From Chlorobium sp. (GTDB lineage: Bacteria > Bacteroidota > Chlorobiia > Chlorobiales > Chlorobiaceae): a DNA stretch of 64,000 bases. Location of the stretch: the NCBI GenBank assembly GCA_005862225.1, contig SZXV01000003.1:124001-188000 (forward strand), read 5' to 3'. Below, piece after piece: positions 9,545 through 27,562 of this stretch (position 1 is its first letter; each line of letters begins with the position of its first letter). The position numbers were made by a program, and so were the translations under genes. The notes beneath the pieces were generated by a model, which saw only the letters and a list, made by a program, of their open reading frames with translations, was not told the origin of the DNA and did no database searches.

Positions 9545-11266
9545 TTAGCTAATCTCCACCACATGCTGCAACTCCCACATCCTCCGATAAAGCCCATTTT
9601 CAGCCATTAACTCACCGTGAACACCCTGCTCCACAATCCGCCCCTTCTCAAGTACCAGAATCCGGTCATACTGTTCCATTCCTTTTAGGCGGTGGGTAAT
9701 TGTTATCAGCGTCTTTTCATCACTGATGGCGTTCAGGGTCTCCGTTACCTCACTCTCCGTTACACCATCGAGGTTCGCTGTTGCTTCATCAAGAATCATG
9801 ATTGGCGCACTTTGCAGCAGGACTCGGGCGATGGCGATGCGCTGACGCTCACCTCCGCTCAGTTTCATGCCGTGCTGGCCGCACCATTCGTCGAGCTTTG
9901 AGGTGAAGTGGCTGAGCCCGGCAGCGGTGAGCGCTTTTTTGAGATCGTCGTCGGTGGCCTCTGGAGCAGCGAGTGTCAGGTTTTCGCGGATGGTTTCGGC
10001 GAAGAGGTAGGTTCGCTGCGAGACGAGGGCGATGTTGCGGCGCAGCTCTTCAGGATCGAAGAGGGTGATGTTGTGGCCTCCGATAGAGATGCTCCCTTCG
10101 CTGCTGTTCCAGAAGCGCATGAAAAGCGAGGTGATAGTTGATTTGCCAGCACCACTTGGGCCAACGATGGCGATGTGCTCTCCGGGGAGAACAGTGAAGC
10201 TGAGACGATCGAGCGCTTTTGTCGTGCTGCCGGGGTAGGTGAAGCTGAGCTTTTCAACCCGAATGGTATGCTCTGCCGGAAAGGGGCGGGGAGTAGCAGG
10301 GGCGACAGTCTCGGGTTTGGCATCAAGAATTTCAAAAAGGCGCTCTCCGGCGTGCTGATCGGCTTCAAGGTGTTTGATGGTTGATGGCAGCGGGAGAAAA
10401 GGCTCAAACGATGCCATGACGGCAAGGGTGATGACGGTGAGAGAAATGCCGTTGATGGCGCCTTTGGCAAGTAAAGGCAGGAGAGCCCAAATAATAGCGA
10501 TGAGAGCCCCGTTCATGAGGAGGCCGGTGAGCGATTCGTGAAGCCCTTCGATAATTGCGTTCTTTCTCTCGAACTGGAGTTTGCCTTGTTCTGCCTTCTG
10601 CATCGCGGTGAGGTGTGCCGGAAGTTTCCCATAAAGTTGCAGTTCCCCAATTCCCTGAAAAAGATCAAGTGCAAGTATCTGCTGTTCGGCCTTGAAGTTC
10701 ATGATGCCGACGGACAGGCCCCTGCTCAACTGTTTGGTCAAAAGGGGGACACCAATTCCCGCAAGAGTATGAAAGAGAAGGATAAGCAGCGCAGCCTGAA
10801 GAGAGTAAACGCCAAGAAGAAACCACATCAGCGCTGCCACAAGCAGTGCGGTGAGGGGTGGGCCGAGTACTCTGGTGTAGATGTTTTCCAAACTCTGGAT
10901 ATCGTCAACAACCCGTTGCAGCAGGTCGCCGCTCTTGAAGTGCATGAGGCGTGCCGGTGCGAGTGGTTCGATGGCGTCATAGAACCAAAGGCGCAGTTTT
11001 GCGAGAATCCTGAAGGTGATGTTGTGGGAGATGAGCCGTTCTGCATATCGGAAGATTCCCCGGCCAAGGCTGAAAATCTGTACACCTATAATACCGACTT
11101 GCAGACTGCCTGTCGGAGGTTGCAGGGCAGCCTTGGCGATGATGTAGGCAGAGGTCATCAAAAGGCCGATGCTGCTGCCGGTTGTGGCAAAGCCGATAAG
11201 TGCAGCAAGAGCCATCCACCAAAAGTATGGCTTGACCAGTGCAATGAGGCGAATAAATGTTTTCAT
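9545..11266 (-). CDS. cydC: Thiol reductant ABC exporter subunit CydC
   Basis: Second half of the heterodimeric CydDC exporter, which moves cysteine and glutathione to the periplasm and is needed to assemble cytochrome bd and c-type cytochromes. It has an N-terminal six-helix membrane domain (MKTFIRLIALVKPYFWW start) and an ATPase domain with Walker A GPSGAGKST near residue 367 and signature LSGGERQRIAIAR near 465. The ATG at 11266 overlaps the cydD stop (ATGA) and has the ribosome site GGAGAG just upstream; this gives 573 residues. No cydAB in the window, but the cbb3 operon lies 11 kb away. Confidence 0.95.
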   Translation of the reverse strand: MKTFIRLIALVKPYFWWMALAALIGFATTGSSIGLLMTSAYIIAKAALQPPTGSLQVGIIGVQIFSLGRGIFRYAERLISHNITFRILAKLRLWFYDAIEPLAPARLMHFKSGDLLQRVVDDIQSLENIYTRVLGPPLTALLVAALMWFLLGVYSLQAALLILLFHTLAGIGVPLLTKQLSRGLSVGIMNFKAEQQILALDLFQGIGELQLYGKLPAHLTAMQKAEQGKLQFERKNAIIEGLHESLTGLLMNGALIAIIWALLPLLAKGAINGISLTVITLAVMASFEPFLPLPSTIKHLEADQHAGERLFEILDAKPETVAPATPRPFPAEHTIRVEKLSFTYPGSTTKALDRLSFTVLPGEHIAIVGPSGAGKSTITSLFMRFWNSSEGSISIGGHNITLFDPEELRRNIALVSQRTYLFAETIRENLTLAAPEATDDDLKKALTAAGLSHFTSKLDEWCGQHGMKLSGGERQRIAIARVLLQSAPIMILDEATANLDGVTESEVTETLNAISDEKTLITITHRLKGMEQYDRILVLEKGRIVEQGVHGELMAENGLYRRMWELQHVVEIS

Positions 11267-13002
11267 GATTGTCTCTCCTGTTGCAGAAGCAGGCTGTCGT
11301 GGTAAAAGCCTCCGTTGGCAATCAACTCCTCGTGGGTGCCGCACTGGGTGATTTTTCCTCCGCTGACGACAATGATTTGCTCGGATGAACGTATGGTTTC
11401 AAGCCGGTGAGCAATGATAACAGTGGTTCTCCCTCTCATAAGCTCCTGAATAGAGCTGCGCAGCGCTGCTTCGAGTTCAGGGTCAGTGTGCGAGGTTGGT
11501 TCGTCAAGCACCAGCAGCGGGGCGTTTTTCAGGAACGCGCGGGCAAGCGCCACCCGTTGCGCCTCTCCTCCGCTCAGGCGAGCACCCTCTTCACCAATCA
11601 TGGTCTCAAGGCCATCCGGCAGTGTTCTGACAAAGGCGGTAAGGCCGGTCTTTTCCAGAGCACTCTCCATCTCTGCCGCTGAAGCCTCCGATTTTGCAAG
11701 GAGAATATTCTCTCGCAGCGTGGCGTTGAAAAGGTAGGGATGCTGCGGAACCCATGAAATCTGGCGATGCCACTCCTCAAGCGGGATGTCATGAATCGGG
11801 TTGCCGTCGATGGTGATACCTCCTTCAGCGGGCTCCTGAAAGCGAAGAAGCAAGTTGATGAGGGTGCTTTTTCCTGCACCGCTCGGGCCAATGATCGCGG
11901 TGGTTTTTCCGGCGGGGATGGTGGCATTTATTCCCTCAACTGCGGGCTGCGATCCTCCGGGATAGGTGTAGGTAACATCAGTAAAGAGAATAGGCCGCTT
12001 TCCGGCGTACTCCTGCACGGTAAAGGCAGGCTTCTGCACGGGAGCAGGCAGGCTCTGGTCGAGAATGGCAAAGATCTCTTTTGAGGCGCTGACTCCTTCC
12101 ATTCCTGCATGAAATTTAGTGCCAAGCTGGCGCAGCGGGAGATAGAAATCGGGGGTGAGGATCAGCACAAAGAGGGCGTGCTGAAAGGTGAGTTTTCCGC
12201 TCATAAGGCGAAGGCCAATGCCGACGGCAATAATGGCCATGCCGATGGTGCCAACGAGTTCGAGCGTCAGAGAAGAGAGAAAGGCCACTTTCAGGACGCG
12301 CATGGTGGCGTGGCGGAAGCTTTCGCCTGACTCTTCAATGGCATCGTGCTGTCGTTTGCTCTGCGCAAAAAGTTTCAGTGTCGGCAGACCTTGCAGCATA
12401 TCAAGAAAGAAGCCGCTCATCCGGCTCATGGTTTTCCACTGCTTTTCAGTCATCGCGCTGGCCGATTTCCCGATCAGGATCATAAAGAGTGGGATAAGAG
12501 GCGCGGTAGCGAGCAGGATGCCGCCGGAAATCGGGTCGTTGGGCATGATGGTGCCCGCGATCAGCAGCGGCGTGAAGAGGGCAAAAAAGATCTGAGGAAT
12601 GTATTGACTGTAATAGGCATCGAGCGCTTCAACGCCCTTCAAAAGGGTGGTGCTGAGCCGTCCGCTCTGCACCGATTTGGCATAGATCGGACCGAGAGCG
12701 CCGACCGTGCTGGTGAGCCTGGTGAAAACTTTCTGTCGGATAATGAGCGTGCCACGGTTCGCTTCAGTATGCGAGAACCAGTTGAAAGCCATCCGCAGAG
12801 TGCTGAAGAGTGCAAAAAGCCCAAGTGGCAGGATGAGTCCCTCCATACCGCTCTTCTGGATAAAGGCACTGTCGATCACCTTGCTGAGGTAGTAAGCCTG
12901 GGCAACCAGCATCCCGGCAGCAAGAATTCCCGATATAATCGAAACGATAAAGGGCCTCCCTTCTTCTTTAAGCAACTGAAAAAGGCGCCGGTCAATATTC
13001 AT
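11263..13002 (-). CDS. cydD: Thiol reductant ABC exporter subunit CydD
   Basis: First half of the CydDC exporter, 579 residues: membrane domain in the first 310 residues and ATPase domain with Walker A GPSGAGKST near residue 370, signature LSGGEAQRVALARA near 475 and Walker B LLVLDEPTSH. The order cydD-cydC with a 4-bp overlap is the usual one. Its 5' side faces a 235-bp gap that should hold the promoter; I see no recognisable operator in it. Confidence 0.94.
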   Translation of the reverse strand: MNIDRRLFQLLKEEGRPFIVSIISGILAAGMLVAQAYYLSKVIDSAFIQKSGMEGLILPLGLFALFSTLRMAFNWFSHTEANRGTLIIRQKVFTRLTSTVGALGPIYAKSVQSGRLSTTLLKGVEALDAYYSQYIPQIFFALFTPLLIAGTIMPNDPISGGILLATAPLIPLFMILIGKSASAMTEKQWKTMSRMSGFFLDMLQGLPTLKLFAQSKRQHDAIEESGESFRHATMRVLKVAFLSSLTLELVGTIGMAIIAVGIGLRLMSGKLTFQHALFVLILTPDFYLPLRQLGTKFHAGMEGVSASKEIFAILDQSLPAPVQKPAFTVQEYAGKRPILFTDVTYTYPGGSQPAVEGINATIPAGKTTAIIGPSGAGKSTLINLLLRFQEPAEGGITIDGNPIHDIPLEEWHRQISWVPQHPYLFNATLRENILLAKSEASAAEMESALEKTGLTAFVRTLPDGLETMIGEEGARLSGGEAQRVALARAFLKNAPLLVLDEPTSHTDPELEAALRSSIQELMRGRTTVIIAHRLETIRSSEQIIVVSGGKITQCGTHEELIANGGFYHDSLLLQQERQS

Positions 13003-14098: not shown

Positions 14099-14737
14099 CT
14101 ACTTGAGGTATTTGCCAGAATTTGGTTTTGGCACACTTTCCCCGAAATACTTGCAAAAAAGAGATATCTCGTTTTTTCTTTTATGTTTACGGGTTATTTT
14201 TTTCTTTTTTATCGTATGTTTGAATTTTAATACAGCAAAATGCAGTTCGATAGATGTTTCTGTATCGCTTGTTTGTAAATCGTCGTCAAAGATGTCCGCA
14301 ATGAGTTCCCCACTCTTTTGCATCAGGGATTTTTGTTCAGCCTTATCTTGAGTAACCGATAATTCTTTTATGCTTCGGGATAACTCCCTGATTTTCGAGA
14401 ACGTTTCGACAATCGAAATGGTTGCCAAGGTTGCCTGTGGGCTTTTGAGTATTGTTGCCAGCATATACAGCCCTTTTTCTGTAAACGCACTTGGCAATTT
14501 TACCTTTCCTCCTTTTATTGAAGTCGAAAATTTCGACTTCAATGAGGATCACTCATTTTTATCAAGCTCCAGTACATAGCCTTCAGGAAACTTTTCCGGG
14601 TTGTTTTTTACCGCCTCATTTATTCTTTTAACCTCGACTCCATAAATGTCGGCAACACTACTGTCAAGCAAAACCGATTGTGTTCTTATCTCAATGATCA
14701 GCTCTTTCAAATTCTCGATTTTTATGAGATCAGTCAT
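14099..14737 (-). pseudogene. ORF6N-domain protein interrupted by an in-frame TGA
   Basis: Residues 1-62 (start MTDLIKIENLKELIIEIRTQ) form the first half of the ORF6N DNA-binding domain seen in phage antirepressor and KilA-N-type proteins, including DIYGVEVKRINEAVKNNPEKFPE-like sequence. The frame then meets TGA at 14549-14551 and continues in the same frame with SSLKSKFSTS and LPSAFTEKGLYMLATIL, the second half of the domain, followed by a coiled-coil-like and very basic tail. Family members commonly have tryptophan at the stop position, so a single TGG to TGA change is the simplest cause. A restart at the TTG at 14542 is possible but would lack half the domain. Confidence 0.8.
14518..14542. 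repeat. 25-nt near-perfect palindrome inside the ORF6N gene
   Basis: Two 12-nt arms (TTGAAGTCGAAA and its reverse complement) around a single A. It begins seven bases after the in-frame TGA of the ORF6N gene, on the downstream side, and spans the codons for LKSKFSTS. It could be an operator-like site or chance from codon content. Confidence 0.7.
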
Positions 14738-14855
14738 ATCCAGAGATCAGCTAATGAACATTTTACCCTTCGCTGTCCTTGGCCGATAAATTCTATTGGA
14801 ACAGTATTCTCCAAGATTTATTGCCAGCTTCTTTTAAAAGCATAATACGTAAATT

Positions 14856-15038
14856 TCAGCTCATGTAAAACCGCTTTACCATTTCAAAGCCATCTCCCTT
14901 CACTACACTGAACTCTTCGAAAATCTCGAAGAGTTGCCCCATCCTCACTTCTGCCTCTCCAGAATACTCCTGTAGATCTCCTTTGCCAGTATCGGGAATA
15001 TCGTTTTCTGGAAGCTCAACCTTGCGTCGACTTTTCAA
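14856..15038 (-). pseudogene. Unrecognised fragment downstream of methyltransferase relic
   Basis: A 60-residue acidic reading frame opening at a TTG at 15038 with LKSRRKVELPENDIPDTG. It begins 17 bp after the methyltransferase relic stop and is on the same strand, where a partner restriction endonuclease would sit. I do not recognise the family. It is too short for an enzyme and may be the remains of one. The 118 bp between this and the ORF6N gene show nothing further. Confidence 0.3.
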
Positions 15039-15055
15039 AAAGCGGTAGTCTCCTG

Positions 15056-15583
15056 TCAGGCACTATAGAGAAATAATTCTCCTTGAGCATTTGATTCAGC
15101 CATCGACTTTGCTTTTTTAATCGGATTGAGTGCACAAGCCGTCTTGTTCAAAAAGTAATTTGCATCACTCTTGCTCAATGCATCCAAGACTCGCTCCATG
15201 GTTGCAGAGCTTTGTCCATCAAGGAACCTGAAGACGGATGAAGAGAGATAATCCTGATTGATCTCAAAGGTTATCCACTTTCGCCTGAGAGCTTCTGCGG
15301 TGAATCCGGTGGTGTTTGAGCCTCCAAAAATGTCACGCACAACATCGTTCTCGTCGGTCAGCATCTTGATAAAAAATGCGGTGAGTTCTGAAGGGAATCT
15401 TGCCGGATGACGTTCAATAACGAGTTCCTTGCATATCCGCAGATAGCTCGAATTGCTATCGGTATTCGGTATAGTGAGAAGGTTGGAAGGAATTACTCCA
15501 CCGTTATCCTTGCCAAACCCGTCACTGATGAATGGTGAGCGATTCATGCAAACGACTTTGCTGGAATTTGAGCTTGAGTGCAA
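15056..15583 (-). pseudogene. Truncated beta-class DNA methyltransferase (C-terminal part), copy 1
   Basis: Reading frame of 175 residues matching only the C-terminal half of a type II N4-cytosine/N6-adenine methyltransferase. SAM-binding motif I is present as DIFGGSNTTG, followed by GFTAEALRRKWITFEINQ, and the upstream segment IPSNLLTIPNTDSNS is typical for these enzymes. In this class the catalytic DPPY-type motif lies before motif I, and it is absent here, so the gene is a 5'-truncated relic. A second, shorter copy lies 1 kb to the right in the same orientation. Confidence 0.8.
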
Positions 15584-15680
15584 GAATAATTTTGTACTTT
15601 TCGGGAGGTAAGAAAAGGCATAAAGGAAATAGTGCTATAAGACTTTTGTCACTAACAACTCATTACGGAGTCAACCTGAA

Positions 15681-15911
15681 ATGGCAATCCTGACAATCGA
15701 CATACCCGACGATTTGAAAAAACGTTGTGAAAGTATCTTTGTCGGCCAAACAATCGAAGAAATGCTTGCTCGACTCTTGCAAGAAGCCCTTGAACATGAA
15801 ACCGTGCATCGCCGTGCCAGGGCCGTCGACAGGCTTTTAGCTCGGCGAGCTACAACAAAACCGGTCAGTGCAGAGGAAATTCAGGCAGCTCGCTTCGCGG
15901 GACGGCCATGA
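15681..15911 (+). CDS. VapB/FitA-like antitoxin
   Basis: A 76-residue protein with an N-terminal ribbon-helix-helix-like segment (MAILTIDIPDDLKKRCESIF) and an acidic-basic C-terminal tail rich in Ala, Arg and Glu (VSAEEIQAARFAG) of the kind that wraps around a PIN toxin. GGAG lies upstream of the ATG. Its stop overlaps the following start by ATGA, the usual vapBC coupling. The partner toxin is collapsed, so this is an antitoxin without a working toxin of its own. Confidence 0.78.
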   Translation: MAILTIDIPDDLKKRCESIFVGQTIEEMLARLLQEALEHETVHRRARAVDRLLARRATTKPVSAEEIQAARFAGRP

Positions 15912-16024
15912 ACCAGTTTGTATTACATTTGGGCGCGTTGCTGATAACGGCTGATGAACAGTATTTTCGGAAAGCGAAAGATATCGGCAATATCAAATTG
16001 TTGGCTGATTATCGACCAATATAG
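15908..16024 (+). pseudogene. VapC-like PIN toxin with the middle deleted
   Basis: A 38-codon frame from an ATG that overlaps the antitoxin stop (ATGA). The first seven residues (MNQFVLH) look like a PIN start, then the frame runs directly into GALLITADEQYFRKAK and IGNIKLLADYR, which is the C-terminal end of VapC proteins. About 90 residues that should carry the catalytic acidic cluster are missing, and the join is in frame. Remnant toxin, not active by inspection. Confidence 0.72.
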
Positions 16025-16080
16025 CTCGACGAGGCTTTATTTGTTGTAAATATGGGAGTTGCAGAATATGTCTGTCAGCA

Positions 16081-16398
16081 CTATAGAGCGGTAGCCCCGA
16101 AAACGAATAATTCTCCTTGCCCTTCAGGTTCAGCCATCAACTTTGATTTTTTAATCGGATTGAGTGCGCAAGCCGTCTTGTTGATAAAGTAATTTGCATC
16201 ACTTTTGCTCAATTCATCCAAAACGCGTTTCATGCTTGCAGAGTTTTGTCCATCAAGGAACCTGAAGATGGATGAAGAGAGATAATCCTGATTTATCTCG
16301 AAGGTTATCCACTTTCTCCTGAGAGCTTCTGCGGTGAATCCGGTGGTGTTTGAGCCTCCAAAAATGTCGAGCACAACATCGTCCTCGTCGGTCAGCAT
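16081..16398 (-). pseudogene. Truncated DNA methyltransferase, copy 2
   Basis: A 105-residue reading frame nearly identical to the last part of the relic at 15056-15583, with the same DIFGGSNTTG motif I and the same C-terminal region ending GELFVFG. By eye the DNA is about 90% identical over roughly 340 bp (15055-15394 against 16075-16424), in direct orientation. Homology fades near 16424, where the gene is cut off. The two relics flank the collapsed VapBC module. Confidence 0.8.
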
Positions 16399-16544
16399 CG
16401 TAATAACAAACGCGGGGTGTTCTGAGATTTACAGAGGAGTGTTACGATAAGCAACGGAGTCGAATCTTGCTCTGGGAGGATTTGAGCACCTTTCATGATG
16501 TTTGGGAAGAGTCTCCGGTAAAAAATCTGGCTGGTTTGAGCGGA

Positions 16545-17642
16545 CTATAATTTCCCTGACAAGCTCAACGTTTGATACCAGTAGAACAACGGTGCTCCGG
16601 GAATGTTTCTTCGTCTATTGAGAAACTGATATTCTATGGGAGCAATACTGTACTTCTGTATATCATCACCTGGCTGCCAACGTTTTATTTCACCCTCATA
16701 ACCTGTCAGGATCATAGCGGCCAGATAAGCAGCTTTAGAAGATGCTACTACCGCATCATCGAGACGGAATGCCCCATTGTAGATGTACGATTTTAATTGC
16801 GTCAAGCCTTTGGTTATGTGCTGAAACTCCCGCTTCGGATCAAAGAACTTGCCCAGTGAGCCAATCATCAATGAGGTGTTGATAATGTCGTTCAGCACCG
16901 CTTCGATAGTGATCTGTTTCTCACCCCTGTAGGCAATCTCTTTTTGTGCTGTTCTGGTAAAGGATTGCCTGAGATGATCGAGGTTGGTTATCCTGTCGAA
17001 CAACATGCCAATGTCGAAAAGTTGCTTCATCACCTCCATTTGTTTTTCGGTAATGCTACCATTGGCGCGCTCAACTCTGAATCGAATACCTACGGTGTTG
17101 GGTGCATAAGCGGTGAGTTTATCACCTGAGATGGAATCCGCTGAAGGTATTTGAACGGTAACAAGTCTCTTGTCTGTTTGAATCCACTTGTTGAGAATCG
17201 GGGCTTGCACAAGTGCCGGATAGCCATGCTCTTCAAACAGGATATCCAGCAAGATCCATTGCTCTTTCTTGTCCCATTGCGAAAAGAATGTGAGCTTGTA
17301 GTGAGCTTTCGGTATGCCGGGTTGATAGCTTCTCCCTTCGTCCAGTTCAAATTTACTGAAGATGCTTCCTGTGCAAATGCCCGTTAAAACCGCTTCGATG
17401 TTTTTCCTGCTTTCGGTGGTAACAATATCGACATCAATCGAGAACCTTTTTGGCTCGGCCAAAATAAGTAAAAGGCTTGTTCCGCCTTTGAAGGTAAACG
17501 AGAGGTCAGTTTGCGCCAACTGCTCAACCAGAGACAGAGCATAGATCACCTTCTCCATGATGGCCGGGTTTGGTGGATTTTTGGGGTAAGCTTTTCTTTT
17601 TCCCCTGATCCACTCTGGAGCATACGATGCAGGCAAGATCAT
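16545..17642 (-). CDS. AbiEii/AbiGii-type nucleotidyltransferase toxin
   Basis: A 365-residue nucleotidyltransferase of the AbiEii family, the toxin of type IV toxin-antitoxin systems linked to phage abortive infection; relatives modify tRNA or other targets with nucleotides. The catalytic GSxxxDxD-type core is visible as FKGGTSLLL (residues 51-59) followed by FSIDVDIV (67-74), with a later SGDKLTAYAPNT motif. Starts with ATG at 17642, overlapping the stop of the upstream partner by ATGA. Appears intact. The 146 bp to the next relic hold nothing I can name. Confidence 0.88.
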   Translation of the reverse strand: MILPASYAPEWIRGKRKAYPKNPPNPAIMEKVIYALSLVEQLAQTDLSFTFKGGTSLLLILAEPKRFSIDVDIVTTESRKNIEAVLTGICTGSIFSKFELDEGRSYQPGIPKAHYKLTFFSQWDKKEQWILLDILFEEHGYPALVQAPILNKWIQTDKRLVTVQIPSADSISGDKLTAYAPNTVGIRFRVERANGSITEKQMEVMKQLFDIGMLFDRITNLDHLRQSFTRTAQKEIAYRGEKQITIEAVLNDIINTSLMIGSLGKFFDPKREFQHITKGLTQLKSYIYNGAFRLDDAVVASSKAAYLAAMILTGYEGEIKRWQPGDDIQKYSIAPIEYQFLNRRRNIPGAPLFYWYQTLSLSGKL

Positions 17643-18391
17643 CTGATGAATAACTCTGAAAAAAGTGTGTTTTTGGACATAAAATCGATCAGCTCTTCGT
17701 CTTTGGTTCTGCGTTTGGCGTAAGCCGTCATTCGGGTGATGTTGAGGGCGTACTTGCTGTAGAGAGTGTTGTAAATATGCTGCAGCTCACTTCCTTGAAA
17801 AGTGCTGAAGAGTTTTTGGTCAACAAAGAGATCGACCAATATTTTTTCGAGTGACGGCGTGGCTATTTTCTTCTCCTTGTCAATGGGTGCTTTGGTTATG
17901 AGAGATTTAACAATGATGGACTCTCTCTCTTCAAAGATGTAACGCTCGATGGTGTTTTCATCAGGAGTTAAAAACAGGTTTTTATAGTGCTCATCCTTCA
18001 GAAAATAAAACGCCGCTTCTGTTGCCGCCGCTTCAGCCTCAACCAACAGCAAGAATCGACCAGGTTGGTGAATCATCCAGTCATTCAGCCATTGGGTGCT
18101 CCAGACGCAAATCCGTGCAGATGGAAACTGCTTCGTGAGTTTTATGGCTATTGCTCGTAGTTTTGGCTCTACCTTCGGGTGAAACTGAGGTTTCGGAGAG
18201 AATGAGTAAACACCTTTTTTGACAGGCATTAACAGGTTTTTTGCTTTAAGCGAATAGAGCCGCCACGCAAAGGTTGAGTCTTTCAAATCAGGTTCAAACG
18301 ACCTGTAAAAGCCCAGCAACTCCTCACGGGTAATGTGGGGATGACGGGAAAACCGCTGTTGTAGCCGTTCTATCATTAAATCTTGTGGCAC
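17639..18391 (-). CDS. AbiE-type antitoxin / winged-helix regulator (DUF6577-like)
   Basis: A 250-residue protein that precedes the AbiEii toxin and overlaps it by ATGA. The N-terminal third looks like a winged helix (ITREELLGFYRSFEPDLKDS, then GVYSF), as in AbiEi antitoxins that repress their own promoter, but the overall sequence resembles the variant class often annotated DUF6577 rather than classical AbiEi. The start is GTG at 18391; an ATG at 18376 is an alternative. The 140 bp upstream would carry the promoter and operator. Confidence 0.75.
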   Translation of the reverse strand: MPQDLMIERLQQRFSRHPHITREELLGFYRSFEPDLKDSTFAWRLYSLKAKNLLMPVKKGVYSFSPKPQFHPKVEPKLRAIAIKLTKQFPSARICVWSTQWLNDWMIHQPGRFLLLVEAEAAATEAAFYFLKDEHYKNLFLTPDENTIERYIFEERESIIVKSLITKAPIDKEKKIATPSLEKILVDLFVDQKLFSTFQGSELQHIYNTLYSKYALNITRMTAYAKRRTKDEELIDFMSKNTLFSELFIR

Positions 18392-18534: not shown

Positions 18535-18789
18535 TCAGGCTTGCCAGTCCCAAGGATTGACGACAGAGACAGATAAATCGCTACAGTGATGAATGTTCCG
18601 AGTTGCCAGGATGGCGTTGTGCGCCAAAACAATACCAGCAATAAAAGTGTCACGCATATCTACTGGACGACCACAGGCCTTACGCTTAGCCGCCAATTGT
18701 GCAGATTGACCGTCCAGCCAAGCCACAACCTGCGGGTCGGGCTGCTGCTGCATCAGGCCAGACAAGACGTTGGTGTCCAGAATAATCAT
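18535..18789 (-). pseudogene. FitB/VapC-type PIN toxin with internal deletion
   Basis: An 84-residue frame starting MIILDTNVLSGLM with the first catalytic aspartate at residue 5. At about residue 30 it jumps from the first alpha helix directly to LAAKRKACGRPVDMRD, which belongs near residue 90 of FitB-like toxins, and then keeps a normal end (AILATRNIHHCSDL, NPWD). Roughly 55 residues, including the central glutamate, are missing in frame. Coupled by ATGA to the antitoxin before it. Probably inactive as a nuclease. Confidence 0.75.
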
Positions 18790-19034
18790 GAGCCAAAGCC
18801 CATCGGTTCAATGGGGTTTCCATGGAGTTCAGTTAACGGCTCGGTAAGGCCTATACCTTCAAACCGGGCAGCGATGCTTGAGCCAAGCCCTGGACGAGTT
18901 TGCCCCACGTTGCTGACAGCATTGCACAGAATCTGACGAACCTCTTCCTCCATACTCCAGCCATGTCGGGTAGTACGTACTTTAAGAAGAACATTTATGT
19001 CATCTTCGATATTGCAAACAATAACTTGAGTCAT
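18786..19034 (-). CDS. FitA/VapB-type antitoxin
   Basis: An 82-residue ribbon-helix-helix protein: MTQVIVCNIEDDINVLLK, then HGWSMEEEVRQILCNAV, the signature of FitA-like plasmid-stability antitoxins (GRSxExEVRxIL). The ATG at 19034 has a strong GGAGG about six bases upstream; a longer frame from 19049 lacks one. The C-terminal tail is long and acidic to neutral. Overlaps the toxin start by ATGA. The antitoxin looks intact while the toxin is gutted. Confidence 0.82.
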   Translation of the reverse strand: MTQVIVCNIEDDINVLLKVRTTRHGWSMEEEVRQILCNAVSNVGQTRPGLGSSIAARFEGIGLTEPLTELHGNPIEPMGFGS

Positions 19035-19261
19035 GAGATACCTCCGCATTTAAACAAGATCAGCACTCTATTGGAAAATCGTCTTTATCGTTCGTTTTTT
19101 TTGAGTTTGAGATGCCGCTGCATTGTATTATTTCAGGCAGAATCAATCTGCCGTACCCAACTATTCCATTGAGGTGGCGTGTCGGCTCTTTACATCCACA
19201 AATATATATTGGATGATCATTAAAACAAAATACTCTGAAATTCCAGATCAGCTCCACTGGT

Positions 19262-20054: not shown

Positions 20055-20230
20055 GGGAAAACGCGAATAACGATTACTCACCAGTTAAAGGCGATGGTGC
20101 AGTATGAGCATATTCTTCTGCTTGAGAAAGGGCGGATTGTGGAGGAGGGTGTGCACTGAGAGTTGTGCTTGGGGATGGTCTTTATCTGCATATGTGGGAG
20201 TTGCTGCATAGAGTGGAGGTCATGGGATGA
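20055..20230 (+). pseudogene. Diverged fragment of the 3' end of a cydC gene
   Basis: On the plus strand the bases encode ITITHQLKAMVQYEHILL, LEKGRIVEEGVH, a TGA with a small frameshift, then GLYLHMWELLHRVEV before a TGA at 20230. This parallels the last 55 residues of the CydC protein at 9545 (ITITHRLKGMEQYDRILV, LEKGRIVEQGVH, GLYRRMWELQHVVEI). By eye the DNA is only about 70-75% identical, so it is a tail from a different cydC rather than a recent local copy. Confidence 0.7.
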
Positions 20231-20354: not shown

Positions 20355-23300
20355 ATGAATGAATCAATCTCCATCCGTATTCTTGAGAATGATGCGAACC
20401 GCCGGGGTGATCTTTTTGGGCGCCTCATGGCTGATCTTTTTGTGGCACTTGGCTATGAGCAACCCCGCCTCAACATTCATAAGTCAGGTCGTGAGCTGGA
20501 TCTTTCTGCTGACCATCGACTCGAAACTCGACGCGCTGTTGGAGAGTGCAAGGCTACACAAGAAACAACTGGCGGTGCCGACTTGAATAAATTTGTTGGG
20601 GCACTTGATGCAGAGCATGATGACAAAAAACCGGTTACAGGATATTTTATTTCTCTTGCTGGATTCAAAGAAACAGCACGCGAACAGGAAAAAAAGCGGC
20701 CAAGAACTAAAATTGTTACCCTTGCGGGTGCTCAAGTGATTGACGAGTTGGTGAAAGGTCGTATTCTTATTCCCAAGGAACGTGCTACAGAACTTTCTGG
20801 TCGCTGTTGCCCATTACTAAAAGATTGCGTTCTTGATCCCGCAACAGAACTTCTCGCTCACGAACGCGGCTGGATCTGGGCAATCTATTATACTCAGGGC
20901 AAAGAACGAACTCACTTCACGTTAATTCACTCAGATGGCACGCCACTGGCTCGTGCGATTGCAGATGAAGTTATCAAGTCAGATAGCGAATGTGGGGGTA
21001 AAATGTCCAGTATTATATGCATCAACCCTCATCCGCAATCGGAGATAGATGCGGAGATGCCTGTCTTGGAAGCTCTTGCTGCTTACGGCCTATACATTGC
21101 CAACGAGTGTGGTTATATCCAACTTGATGGCCTTCCCGCTGATAGTGATGTTGGCTCACGCCGACTCAGAATCGAAAACCTTTTTGTTCCACTTCACCTT
21201 GATGTAAAAGTTAAGGCAGGTGATGAATGGCGGAAAATGGAACGCCAGTCTATTGGTGCTATGCTTGCAGATCATCCACGACTTGCACTGTTGGCTGCCC
21301 CGGGTGGCGGAAAATCAACGCTTCTTAAAAGGTTAGCTGTTGCTTATGCAGACCCAGAAAGGCGCGAAAAAATTGCTGACAATCTTCCGGCGAACACTTG
21401 GCTGCCACTCTTTTTTCGATGCCGAGAGTTACGCGGCTTAGCCCGTGGCTCCTTTGCTGAATTACTGGATGCCTTGTCGCAGCGCGAACCAGTCAGACAA
21501 CACGCAACAATTTTCCGTGCGCATGTGGATCGTGAATTGCTTGCCGGACGAGTTCTACTTCTTGTTGATGGACTTGATGAAATATCCGATCCTGGTGATA
21601 GAGCGGCATTTGTCTGTACTATCAGAATGGCACTTCAGGCTTATCCCGGTATTGCCGCTGTAATTACTTCGCGCGAGGCTGGTTTTCGACATGTCGCGGC
21701 ACATTTAGCTCCCGTTTGCACTCACGCCACAGTTTCTTTCTTCGATCATGATGATATTCGCCGACTCAGCGTTTCTTGGCATCAGGAAGTTGTTGGTGAT
21801 ACGGAAAAAGTGCGCACGGACGCTGAACAACTTGCACAAACGATTGTCCAGAACGACCGTATTCAACGACTTGCGGTGAACCCGTTATTGCTTACTACGC
21901 TTTTGCTCGTAAAGAGATGGGTTGGTTCGCTCCCGACACGAAGGGCAGTACTTTATGGAAAGGCTGTGGAAGTTCTTCTGATGACATGGAATACTGAGGG
22001 ACATGAACCAATTCCCGACGAAGAAGCGTTGCCGCAGCTTTGTTATGTCGCGGCGGCAATGATGCTCTCAAAAGTAGAAAGAATAAGTCGCCGAGGGTTG
22101 GCTGCCCTGATTCAGGAAGCTCGTGATGTTCTTCCAACGGAACTCGGTTACGTAAAAGGCACCGTTGAAGAATTTATTCACCGGGTCGAAGACCGTAGCA
22201 GCCTTCTTATGATGACCGGGTACGATGTGGAGGAGGGGCAACTGGTTGAGTTTTTCGAATTTCGCCATCTTACCTTTCAGGAGTTTCTTGCAGCCCGTGC
22301 GATGGTCGAAGGGTGGCACCCTGGGCGAAAGGAGCAGGATACTCTTGCAACTGTTCTTGAACCACATTTCGAAGACGAGAAGTGGCGCGAAGTTATCCCA
22401 CTTGCTGCGGTATTGGGCGGAAAGGCGACGGAAGCTCTTATCCAGCTATTGACCGATAATGTTCGAGGAAAAGTTGCCTCGAATGAAACATCGTTTACTG
22501 TGCTTGGCAATTGTTTAGCTGATGAAGCAGCAGCTCGCCCTGAAACCATTCGGGCGGCCATTCGAGAATTGGTGCGTTTCGGCTCACAGTTATATGATCA
22601 ATCATTTGCGATGATGCTTTGTCGAGGGAAATATGGTGTAGAGTTACGCGAAGAAGCTGAGAAGGCCTTCATATCAGTGACCAACGACATAGCCAATCCT
22701 GCAGACGCGTTGATTTTGACACTTCGATCACAAACTTATGTTGGCTTGGATGCTGAACCAATTCATAGAGAAATTGTGAAATTCAATGGCATGTTGCGTA
22801 GCAAAGAAAGGCTTACCCGATGCGCAGGTGCTCTTGGTATTGGGAATATGTGCGCTTACATAGCTGATGAAAGAGTCTTACATGATAAACCCTTAGAGGA
22901 GGCTTTCACCGAAGCAGTGTTATTAATCGAGCCATTATTGTATGAACCGTTTTTACAGGAACAATCCGCAGCCACTTATGCACTTGCATATCTACCCCAA
23001 ATCCACAAGGAGCCGCCACAAGAACCAGATTTGCTTGATCGCCTTATGTGGTTATGGAGGAGCAAAAGCTCAAACGACACAATGCAAAATCTAGCAATAC
23101 GTGCATTGGTCAATCAACCTATTGCCTCTCGACTTCAGGTACGGCGTTGCGTTTCACTTCTTCCCGAAGAAATTGAAAGTATGTTTTATAGGTATGATGA
23201 ATTAAAAGATGGAGATGAAAAAACAGCAACTCTTGTTGTAGCTTGGTATCTGATGGCGCTCACTGACCGTGACCTGAGCACACGAACCCATAAGCTTCTC

Positions 23301-23390
23301 GAAAAAAAGAATGTGTATTTGTCTGATTACGCGAGACAGACTCTTAAATCGCTGCTCGCTCAGCTTGGTGAAAAGCCTCTTGAAAACTAA
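20355..23390 (+). CDS. REase-NACHT protein, bacterial NLR-like anti-phage defence (bNACHT)
   Basis: A 1011-residue intact protein. Residues 1-135 form a restriction-endonuclase-like domain of the Mrr type: RRGDLFGRLMADLF helix, then GRELDL with D49, and GECK with E64 and K66, the PD-(D/E)xK catalytic set. A linker region to about 290 is followed by a NACHT NTPase: Walker A LAAPGGGKST (residues 313-322, first Gly replaced by Ala), Walker B LLLVDGLDEI (401-410), TSREAGFR sensor, LAVNPLLLTTLLL, and the winged-helix end motif FEFRHLTFQEFLAARA (about 634-649). The remaining 360 residues are helical, HEAT-like, and probably sense the trigger. In studied bNACHT proteins sensing of phage activates the N-terminal effector; here that effector would be a DNA nuclease. 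Upstream DNA is AT-rich with no clear ribosome site. Confidence 0.88.
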   Translation: MNESISIRILENDANRRGDLFGRLMADLFVALGYEQPRLNIHKSGRELDLSADHRLETRRAVGECKATQETTGGADLNKFVGALDAEHDDKKPVTGYFISLAGFKETAREQEKKRPRTKIVTLAGAQVIDELVKGRILIPKERATELSGRCCPLLKDCVLDPATELLAHERGWIWAIYYTQGKERTHFTLIHSDGTPLARAIADEVIKSDSECGGKMSSIICINPHPQSEIDAEMPVLEALAAYGLYIANECGYIQLDGLPADSDVGSRRLRIENLFVPLHLDVKVKAGDEWRKMERQSIGAMLADHPRLALLAAPGGGKSTLLKRLAVAYADPERREKIADNLPANTWLPLFFRCRELRGLARGSFAELLDALSQREPVRQHATIFRAHVDRELLAGRVLLLVDGLDEISDPGDRAAFVCTIRMALQAYPGIAAVITSREAGFRHVAAHLAPVCTHATVSFFDHDDIRRLSVSWHQEVVGDTEKVRTDAEQLAQTIVQNDRIQRLAVNPLLLTTLLLVKRWVGSLPTRRAVLYGKAVEVLLMTWNTEGHEPIPDEEALPQLCYVAAAMMLSKVERISRRGLAALIQEARDVLPTELGYVKGTVEEFIHRVEDRSSLLMMTGYDVEEGQLVEFFEFRHLTFQEFLAARAMVEGWHPGRKEQDTLATVLEPHFEDEKWREVIPLAAVLGGKATEALIQLLTDNVRGKVASNETSFTVLGNCLADEAAARPETIRAAIRELVRFGSQLYDQSFAMMLCRGKYGVELREEAEKAFISVTNDIANPADALILTLRSQTYVGLDAEPIHREIVKFNGMLRSKERLTRCAGALGIGNMCAYIADERVLHDKPLEEAFTEAVLLIEPLLYEPFLQEQSAATYALAYLPQIHKEPPQEPDLLDRLMWLWRSKSSNDTMQNLAIRALVNQPIASRLQVRRCVSLLPEEIESMFYRYDELKDGDEKTATLVVAWYLMALTDRDLSTRTHKLLEKKNVYLSDYARQTLKSLLAQLGEKPLEN

Positions 23391-24161: not shown

Positions 24162-24223
24162 TTCTTTATTAGCGCTAAGCAGTGGATTATTTTACGACTA
24201 ATAATACGCAAATTCCCGACCAT

Positions 24224-25135: not shown

Positions 25136-27562
25136 TCACAGGTTTTTCAGCCGCAGGGAGTTGCTTACCACAACAAGGGAGCTGGTCACCATCAGCAGTG
25201 CGGAGATGATGGGGTGCAGCACCCCCGACACGGCAAGTGGCAGCGCTATGAGATTATACGAAAAGGCCCAGACAAGGTTCTGCCTGATGATGGAAAAACA
25301 TCGCGAGGAGCTTGTAATCAGGGTGTTGATGAGCCTGAGATCGTCGTTCAGGATGGCAACGCTGGCGCTCTCAAGGGCAATGGCTGAGGCATGGCCGAGG
25401 GTGACGCCGATGTCGGCTTCGGTCAGGGCGGGCGCGTCATTGATGCCGTCGCCGACCATCATGACGCATTCTCCGTTTGCTTTCAGGGCGCGGATCACCG
25501 CCGCTTTTTCGAGGGGGCCAAGCCCGGCCTGTACGTCGGTGATGCCGCATTTGGCAGCGATGTAGTTTGCTACTCCACGGTTGTCGCCGGTCAGCATCAT
25601 CAGGGCAAACCCTTTTTTCCGCAGCCCCTCAATAAGGGGAAGGGCATCCGTGCGCAGGTCGTCAATCATCCCGATTACTCCGGCCAGTTTGTTGCCGCAG
25701 GCGACCATCACCACGGTTTTCCCTTCAGCTTCGAGTGATGCGGTGTGGTCGCTCTCTTGACGCTCAATCTGAACACCCTCCTCATCCATAAAAGCCTTTG
25801 AGCCTGCCCGCCAGAGAGTTCCTGCAATCACCCCAGAAACTCCTCTGCCCGGCGTTGCCCTGAACTGTGTTACCGTCAGCCGTTCACCCTGCCATGCAGC
25901 CACAAGGGCGCGTCCGGTGGGGTGCTCCGAGGCAGCTTCGAGCGAGGCGACATGCTGCATCAACGTTGACGCGAGGCCGTAGTCGTGCAGGTTGGTCATG
26001 GAGGGCTTGCCGGTGGTGATGGTGCCGGTTTTGTCGAGCACGACGGTGGTGGTTTTTGAGACGGTCTCAAAAATATCGCCCCCTTTGACGAGAATCCCTC
26101 TCTTTCCGGCAGAGGTGGTGCCGACCAGAATGGCGAGCGGCGTTGCCAGACCAAGGGCGCAGGGGCAGGCGATGACGAGCACCGAGACGGCGTTCATCAG
26201 GGCGGTGACGCTGCTGGCGGAGGTGAGTTTCCAGTAGAGAAAGGTGGCAAGCGCGAGGATGATGGTGGTCGGGACGAAATAACCGGCGGTTTTGTCGGCA
26301 ATGCCCTGAATCGGCGCCTTTCGTGCCTGGGCATCCTCCACCGTGCGGATAATAAGGGCAAGCAGGGTGCTCGCCGCATTGCCGGTGACCTGGATGCGGA
26401 GCCGTCCATTCATGGAGAAGCTTCCGGCAAACACCTCGCTGCCGGTTTTTTTAAGGACGGGATTTGATTCGCCGGTCAGCATCGCTTCGTTTACCTCCGC
26501 TTCACCATCCACAACCCTGCCATCAAGCGGAATCCGGTCGCCCGGGATGATCTCAATCATCTCCCCGCTTTGTACCGCAGCAACAGGCACCATACTGGTT
26601 TCGCCACTCTCTGCCACCCGCAGCGCCTCATGCGGTTGCAGCTCAGCCAGTTCAGCAATCGCGTTGCCTGCCTTGAGCCTTGAGCCTGCCTCCAGAAAGC
26701 GCCCCAGCAGAATGAAGGTGATGATCATCGAGGCGGTGTCGAAAAATATCTCCCCCCCATAGAAAATCATGGCAATGCTGTAACCGTAGGCCGAGAGTGA
26801 GCCAAGCGCCACCAGAACATCCATGTTGAGCGTCAGCCGTCTCAGCGAGCGGAGGGCGCTTGAAAGAAAGGGATAGCCAGAGTAGAAGAGCACCGGCGTG
26901 GCCAGCGCCCATGAGATAAGCTGGAAAGCAAGCCGGTAACGCTCCTCAATTCCCTCAAAAAAGCCCGCGTAGAGTGCGGTGGTAAAGAGCATGAGCTGCA
27001 TGGAGAAAAATCCGGCGGTGCCGAAGCGCAGCAGCAGCTCCTGTTTCTCCCGGGCAAACATATCGGCACTTCCATTGCCATGGCAGGGGTGGGGCAGGTA
27101 GCCGATGGAGCGGATGGCGTTCAGTATAACTTCGAGGCTCACCTCTTCACCACTCCAGGTGATGGTTGCCTTGTGGGTGGCATAGTTCACCCTTACCGAG
27201 AGCACCCCGTCAAGCTTCATCAGAAACTTTTCGATAAGCCAGACACAGGAGGCGCACCTGATGCCTGAGAGGAGCAGCTCAATCCGATGCTCCTTGCCGT
27301 TGATGATGACGGTGTCGCTGAAGGCCGAGGCCTGAAGTTTTACCCCGGTTGCCGGAGGGCCGGGCTGCCAGTCGCACCGCTGGTTGTAGAAGGCGTCAAG
27401 CGAGTTGCTGTGGATAAGCTCATACACGCCAAGGCAACCGTGGCAGCAAAACACCTTGCGCTCTCCGTTGATCTCAACGATAATGGCCGATGCCCGGCTG
27501 GTCTCCTGCAGGCAGTGGTCGCAGCGCAGCCTTTCGGGCGATGGTTGGTCACTCTCTGACAT
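25136..27562 (-). CDS. ccoI: Copper-translocating P1B-type ATPase CcoI (FixI)
   Basis: Exports copper across the inner membrane for assembly of the heme-copper centre of the cbb3 oxidase. The 808-residue protein has a Cys-rich N-terminus (CDHCLQ, then CCHGCLGVYEL), a heavy-metal-associated domain with GIRCASC near residue 102, eight membrane segments, the transport motif ACPCALGLATP near 465, the phosphorylation site DKTGTITTGK near 511 and GDGINDAP near 705. Starts at ATG 27562, overlapping ccoH by 14 bp. Confidence 0.95.
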   Translation of the reverse strand: MSESDQPSPERLRCDHCLQETSRASAIIVEINGERKVFCCHGCLGVYELIHSNSLDAFYNQRCDWQPGPPATGVKLQASAFSDTVIINGKEHRIELLLSGIRCASCVWLIEKFLMKLDGVLSVRVNYATHKATITWSGEEVSLEVILNAIRSIGYLPHPCHGNGSADMFAREKQELLLRFGTAGFFSMQLMLFTTALYAGFFEGIEERYRLAFQLISWALATPVLFYSGYPFLSSALRSLRRLTLNMDVLVALGSLSAYGYSIAMIFYGGEIFFDTASMIITFILLGRFLEAGSRLKAGNAIAELAELQPHEALRVAESGETSMVPVAAVQSGEMIEIIPGDRIPLDGRVVDGEAEVNEAMLTGESNPVLKKTGSEVFAGSFSMNGRLRIQVTGNAASTLLALIIRTVEDAQARKAPIQGIADKTAGYFVPTTIILALATFLYWKLTSASSVTALMNAVSVLVIACPCALGLATPLAILVGTTSAGKRGILVKGGDIFETVSKTTTVVLDKTGTITTGKPSMTNLHDYGLASTLMQHVASLEAASEHPTGRALVAAWQGERLTVTQFRATPGRGVSGVIAGTLWRAGSKAFMDEEGVQIERQESDHTASLEAEGKTVVMVACGNKLAGVIGMIDDLRTDALPLIEGLRKKGFALMMLTGDNRGVANYIAAKCGITDVQAGLGPLEKAAVIRALKANGECVMMVGDGINDAPALTEADIGVTLGHASAIALESASVAILNDDLRLINTLITSSSRCFSIIRQNLVWAFSYNLIALPLAVSGVLHPIISALLMVTSSLVVVSNSLRLKNL

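Follow-up and report, generated by a model that had tools for sequence, protein, structure and literature searches.

How did two truncated copies of a single methyltransferase (MT) tail come to flank a damaged toxin-antitoxin (TA) module in a Chlorobium chromosome? A preliminary description of the window (the whole 64,000-nucleotide stretch analysed here) had placed two ~340-bp copies in direct repeat, roughly 90% identical, and its coordinates proved correct within ~30 bp. Pairwise alignment of 15072-15391 with 16106-16425 is continuous and ungapped, with 288/320 positions identical (90%; E 1e-119), and beyond a short gap a further 17/18 positions match, so that the homology reaches ~15054 and ~16073. 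Both copies are on the minus strand and thus direct with respect to each other; they share a longest identical run of 51 bp, and within the 9-22 kb part of the window they are the only long direct repeat. MT nucleotides are numbered below on one intact gene of a relative, genome G027 (351 aa, L063:4567-5622). The repeat and its surroundings comprise, in window coordinates:

14901-15017, minus strand: 117-bp repeat fragment, found in relatives after the MT and after a longer ORF, 94-96% identical
15072-15530, minus strand: MT copy 1 remnant, MT nt 573-1032, with homology running into the native 3' flank to 14937 (MT 1182)
15681-15911, plus strand: complete antitoxin ORF, 76 aa, with no significant Pfam match
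15908-16024, plus strand: PIN (VapC-like) toxin remnant, 38 aa, ~310 bp shorter than in G027
16072-16425, minus strand: MT copy 2 remnant, MT nt 712-1066, with ORF 16081-16398
16545-17642, minus strand: AbiEii-like gene, a window-specific neighbour that adjoins the truncated 5' end of copy 2
17639-18391, minus strand: AbiEi-like gene (DUF6577)

Against the intact reference, copy 1 corresponds to MT nt 573-1182 and copy 2 to 712-1066. As had been proposed, the copies share the motif I region (a motif-I-like DIFGGSNTTG) and lack the catalytic, N-terminal half with its SPPF motif. Their matches to the Pfam N6_N4_Mtase family are confined to the C-terminus of the profile (159-218 and 177-218 of its 221 positions); the intact relative matches positions 1-218 of the 221 in PF01555, with SPPF followed by DIFGGSNTTG, the order (motif IV before motif I) of a full domain. 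Because no more than the final third of the beta-class profile is matched, both copies are, judged by domain coverage, 5'-truncated remnants of one beta-class N6/N4 MT gene. Their ends differ: the native MT 3' flank is retained by copy 1 and not by copy 2, which is cut 10 nt past the stop codon, where the TA module begins with its toxin gene. Copy 1 lies within an ORF (15056-15583) whose first ~18 codons derive from the TA flank. No full-length MT was found elsewhere in the window's own genome, where a DNA search returned just the two window fragments and no N-terminal remnant; the best other protein match is 45% identical and lies on another contig. A 491-aa HEAT-repeat ORF, probably the partner nuclease of the MT, precedes the intact MT genes of relatives; it is present in 4/37 genomes, and has no match in the window's genome at E<=1e-10.

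The module between the repeats was rightly called collapsed, in that its antitoxin ORF is complete and its PIN toxin is an in-frame remnant. Compared with the intact G027 homologue (142 aa, PIN E 1.8e-6), the window toxin has lost ~310 bp, and a type II VapBC-like pair of PIN toxin and antitoxin is thus intact in G027 and not in the window; the antitoxin is called VapB-like only by its position and its PIN partner. MT and toxin functions have presumably both gone from the window, leaving a direct repeat and possibly a live antitoxin. A second PIN/RHH TA pair lies at 18535-19049 (minus strand; FitA-like antitoxin, E 1.7e-10), and its toxin has an internal deletion of ~160 bp between 18696 and 18709, leaving 84 aa where L063 has 141 aa; two toxins of the window island are collapsed, while their antitoxins are still open.

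Two simple accounts of the tails can be weighed on the copies themselves. A recent tandem duplication of one tail within this genome, an origin that the preliminary description had raised, would produce the direct orientation, and the two copies do group together (96/93) in a tree of 12 MT tails, 11 of them distinct, from which shorter pieces were excluded; inner branches of this tree are short and 7/8 of its forks open. We nevertheless regard such an origin as very unlikely and do not retain it, since the copies differ in their ends and outer neighbours and are just 90% alike, about as distant from each other as from the copies of other species. A true tandem duplication is present at the same locus in genome G013, where 6.3 kb are repeated at a spacing of 9.36 kb with 98.8% identity. 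Even harder to credit is the idea that the tails are retained as expressed peptides, for example as a SAM-binding decoy. Copy 1 is open for 175 aa, and differences of each copy from an intact relative still favour third codon positions (20/32 and 22/41), but differences between the copies are spread 14:10:8 over positions 3:1:2, compared with 44:6:5 between two intact genes, so that much of the divergence between the copies is relaxed; moreover, the catalytic half is absent and the open frame of copy 1 begins in the TA flank.

Relatives provide the context that the window alone does not. MT DNA matches at E<=0.001 occur in 15/61 genomes, some of them weak, and full or near-full genes (at least MT 7-1056) were found in G005, G013 (two), G022 (two) and G027 (two). 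The uninterrupted target expected for a long target duplication exists in these relatives, as the MT is intact and without the TA module in G027 (C44) and G013, with further full-length matches in G022 and G005. On a second G027 contig (C24), the order is an intact 356-aa MT reaching MT 1068, the intact PIN toxin, the antitoxin and an MT fragment starting at 443. The junction of MT 1066/1068 with the toxin is common to the window and G027; in G030, MT 1067 is joined to a different neighbour. The right-hand MT fragment that adjoins the antitoxin in G027 is 50 bp long (443-492) and scores 48, against a maximum of 33 among 1000 dinucleotide shuffles, and the corresponding G013 fragment scores 42 against a maximum of 34; the score was thus attained by 0/1000 shuffles in either genome, and reverse-complement controls score 19 and 23. 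In G013 the left arm spans MT 366-802 and the toxin is partly missing. The same module therefore lies between a left and a right MT piece in three genomes (the window's, G027 and G013), although the right junction of the window is unlike that of the other two, with about 14 bp and MT 443-572 missing. The two arms with their ends and common orientation, the G027 and G013 arrangements and the significance of the 50-bp arm are direct observations. A similar overlap is seen in G018, where MT 7-658 is followed by a D12 methyltransferase and a NotI-like nuclease and then by MT 382-1180 (L057:6884-10346; direct repeat 92.8% identical); its junctions recur, further trimmed, in G022, and the right junction alone in G005.

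Since the G027 MT runs to 1068 before the module and resumes from 443 after it, the module lies inside a long MT duplication (~MT 443-1068, 626 bp, a figure that combines pieces of one relative whose right arm is just 50 bp). Direct copies of target DNA flank the inserts over 320-355 bp in the window, where this is the overlap between the two MT copies, 277 bp in G018 and 626 bp as reconstructed from G027. The two tails are a true scar in a genus-wide variable locus, and we lean, with modest confidence, towards reading them as what erosion has left of the two arms of a long target duplication, formed about a TA module inside an MT gene. A PIN TA module would have entered a Type II-like restriction-modification unit within its MT gene, leaving ~MT 443-1068 on both sides in the order left arm (MT up to 1068), toxin-antitoxin, right arm (MT from 443). 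G027 would represent a stage at which neither the MT gene of the left arm nor the module has been damaged and just 50 bp of the right arm survive. In the window, erosion would have truncated the left arm at MT 712, now fused to AbiE, and the right arm at MT 573, still with its native 3' flank, and would have shortened the toxin in frame, through deletions whose joints have little or no homology. That the duplication arose at insertion, and the order of the deletions, we infer from these arrangements. It may have come from a circle with the module and an MT piece on it that integrated by a single crossover, a process that would yield such duplications and be reversible, or from some other mode of insertion. 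The locus would then offer a natural series, from intact through half-worn to eroded, for what looks like insertion of a TA module into an MT gene with long target duplication. The earlier suggestion of recombination with a related restriction-modification locus comes close to this reading, in that the intact MT occurs in relatives, two of which also have the same TA module enclosed by stretches of MT. Recombination between the repeats, also proposed earlier, could remove the module given the 51-bp identical run, but no excised form was present in the genomes searched, and the pair is more than a simple excision repeat.

The ends of MT fragments are scattered on the left (7, 366, 382, 440, 451, 573, 712, 763, 851) as on the right (462, 658, 802, 830, 839, 887, 894, 1066-1068, 1097), and site-specific breakpoints inside the MT were rejected for this reason. 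Ends that recur mostly do so with a common flank and therefore reflect shared descent, the exception being MT 1067 with its two different neighbours. The repeats belong to an island whose conserved flanks we identified as follows; the gene labels ccoI, safE and cydDC used here are presumptive.

11263-13002, minus strand: ABC transporter ORF, which we take to be of CydC/CydD type, conserved island flank
25150-27400, minus strand: cation ATPase region, presumably ccoI-like, conserved island flank

Both flanking genes are on one contig in 13/41 genomes (G000, G001, G004, G006, G007, G014, G015, G018, G022, G029, G031, G034 and G061), and the distance between ccoI and cydDC, obtained by subtracting match positions (the G022 ccoI match being a 5'-truncated copy), ranges from 1.5 to 33.6 kb. 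Five genomes have 1.5-3.1 kb, six have 8-16 kb, among them the window's own with 12.1 kb, and the remaining two have 25.2 and 33.6 kb. Self-comparison of the islands yielded 16 direct pairs in G013, 24 in G018 and 37 in G022 (77 in total) against one inverted pair of 27 bp in each (three in total); the window island has one direct and one inverted pair, and window 24201-64000 one direct and two inverted. Where an MT piece shares its contig with a flanking gene, its orientation is the same in 20/20 cases (G000 2, G013 6, G018 3, G022 7, G027 2); these pieces are not independent events, and the count excludes those on the flank-less contigs of G005, G009, G012, G017, G023, G025, G030 and G033 and weak ones. 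Direct-only repeats favour tandem duplication, deletion and homology-based insertion over transposition. As regards movement as a composite transposon or with an IS, no transposase or integrase appeared among the Pfam families (25 of 28 listed in one part) of 85 island ORFs of >=100 aa from G013, G018, G022 and the window. The relatives' genomes are mostly draft assemblies with many contigs.

Such islands lend some weight to a different history, in which an ancestral island already held several direct MT copies, unequal crossing-over or transformation put the TA module between two of these, both were trimmed by deletions, and the insertion itself duplicated nothing. As many as seven MT pieces occur in a single relative's island, repeats of the ccoI 3' end are present in G013, G018 and G022, and the G013 tandem repeat demonstrates duplication at this locus. 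We consider this history possible but less probable, because random placement predicts neither the identical MT-1067 junction of the module in the window and G027, nor MT sequence on the other side of the module in three genomes. Pieces of the flanking core gene ccoI, both internal and from its 3' end, are repeated in the islands of G022 (L059), G018 (L057-L058) and G013 (L055-L056), always in direct orientation.

Several results count against the target-duplication reading if one insertion is shared by all three genomes. Such an event predicts that copy 2 is nearest to the G027 left arm; instead it groups with copy 1. Arms made at one insertion should start out identical, and those of the window are 90% alike, group in the tree and have diverged unequally with the module. 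Copy 2 is 89.5% identical to the G027 MT arm, whereas the TA module is 97.7% identical between the window and G027 and between the window and G013 (toxin tail 96.6% with G027), a difference with a Fisher p of 1.1e-6; flanking core genes are 92-93% (ccoI) and 85-87% (cydC) identical to G013, G018 and G027. Divergence is thus greater in the arms than in the module, so that either the module was the later to spread or decay was faster in the arms; together with the grouping of the window copies this requires that the module spread horizontally or that conversion took place between arms. Over its final ~45 bp, beside the toxin, the arm is nearly identical to G027, yet wider arm profiles show no clear mosaic; with no clear gradient, arm mosaicism was rejected as a proof that integration was by single crossover.

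Insertion with long target duplication was reportedly described for restriction-modification genes by Nobusato et al. in 2000 and Furuta et al. in 2010. The window arrangement appears to match this mode, with a TA module as the insert: in both, a defence module lies between direct target copies of variable length, no transposase is seen and there is a link to rearrangement. Here, however, the insert is a TA pair, the target is itself an MT gene, the inferred duplication is ~626 bp, the arms are eroded and several layers are found at one locus. Target duplications are put 'in the order of 100 bp' in a review (PMC3874152), and a paper on restriction-modification (PMC3031569) speaks of 'long and variable target duplications'. 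As in defence islands that grow by accretion and decay, restriction-modification, AbiE, RhuM, zeta toxin, PIN/RHH, D12 methyltransferase and NACHT/STAND-like genes occur in one interval, but repeats here are almost purely direct and include pieces of a flanking core gene. Comparison with relatives suggests a chromosomal spot where defence genes have been repeatedly added, duplicated and broken. A literature search, with subscription journals mostly outside its reach, returned no paper on the ccoI-cydDC locus.

Islands of several Chlorobium genomes share a boundary motif, directly after which their sequences diverge. The window has two copies:

14842-14857, minus strand: GAAATTTGCGTATTAT (16 bp, one mismatch), promoter-like TTTACA-16-TATTAT
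24201-24216, minus strand: second GAAATTTGCGTATTAT copy, exactly at the end of the ccoI-side flank homology

With up to one mismatch, these are the only two copies in the window's genome, and 29 matches were found in 12 of 37 genomes, against 2 for a reversed control pattern; viral contigs gave no exact match. Among the loci compared, the motif joins varied neighbours, upstream class U1 occurring with seven downstream classes and downstream class D1 with five upstream classes. Both window sites fit a sigma-70-like promoter (TTTACA/TTTAGA-16-TATTAT), for which 0.7-0.8 matches per region are expected by chance. The attI-like stretch after the integron integrase of G013 also contains the island motif with one mismatch. 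The likeness to attI is significant at four island sites, in G017, G018, G022 and CAIMPI (0/500 shuffles each), and not significant for the two window sites alone, whose scores are reached by 42/500 and 38/500 shuffles. The motif may serve as a promoter common to these loci, as an attachment site or in both roles. The G013 integron (L091:1-5200) has an integrase (G013:C11:5067-6083; TIGR02249, E 1.9e-142) transcribed toward attI, and three attC sites. An integron integrase is above cut-off in 10/41 genomes of the genus; the window's genome has none above cut-off, its best match being an 87-aa remnant on another contig (C10:3470). A strict attC pattern, which may miss odd sites, occurs three times in the 5.2 kb of the G013 integron, at most once per strand in other islands and not at all in the 11.2-kb window island. 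A cassette array was therefore rejected for the window, which differs from the Chlorobium chromosomal integron in having no attC-like sites and no linked integrase, despite the motif that G013 attI and the islands have in common.

More speculatively, the ccoI-cydDC interval could be a dedicated acquisition site of Chlorobium, which modules would enter as circles, each bringing along part of a resident gene (the MT or the 3' end of ccoI) as its own movable arm of homology, and/or at the promoter-like motif within attI; MT fragments would then be recurring points of landing and exchange, and modules would cross species faster than arms. We regard this as an improbable generalization. If arms do serve exchange, defence genes could spread without a mobile element of their own. 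Across one genus, this locus allows a defence island to be followed as it grows and decays with no evident transposases.

Other features of the window island are recorded here. A 1011-aa NACHT/STAND-like protein is encoded at 20355-23390 (plus strand), weakly matching antiphage EruA (E 5.5e-9) and perhaps having an Mrr-like N-terminus, if the NACHT and Mrr matches are correctly assigned to this ORF. An ORF6N-type gene at 14099-14737 (minus strand) is split over two frames, the second part matching PADLOC PDC-S05 (E 2.3e-45). Finally, an inverted repeat of 107 and 44 nt (78-80% identical) pairs 9554-9715, on the cydDC side, with 20058-20218 in the island.
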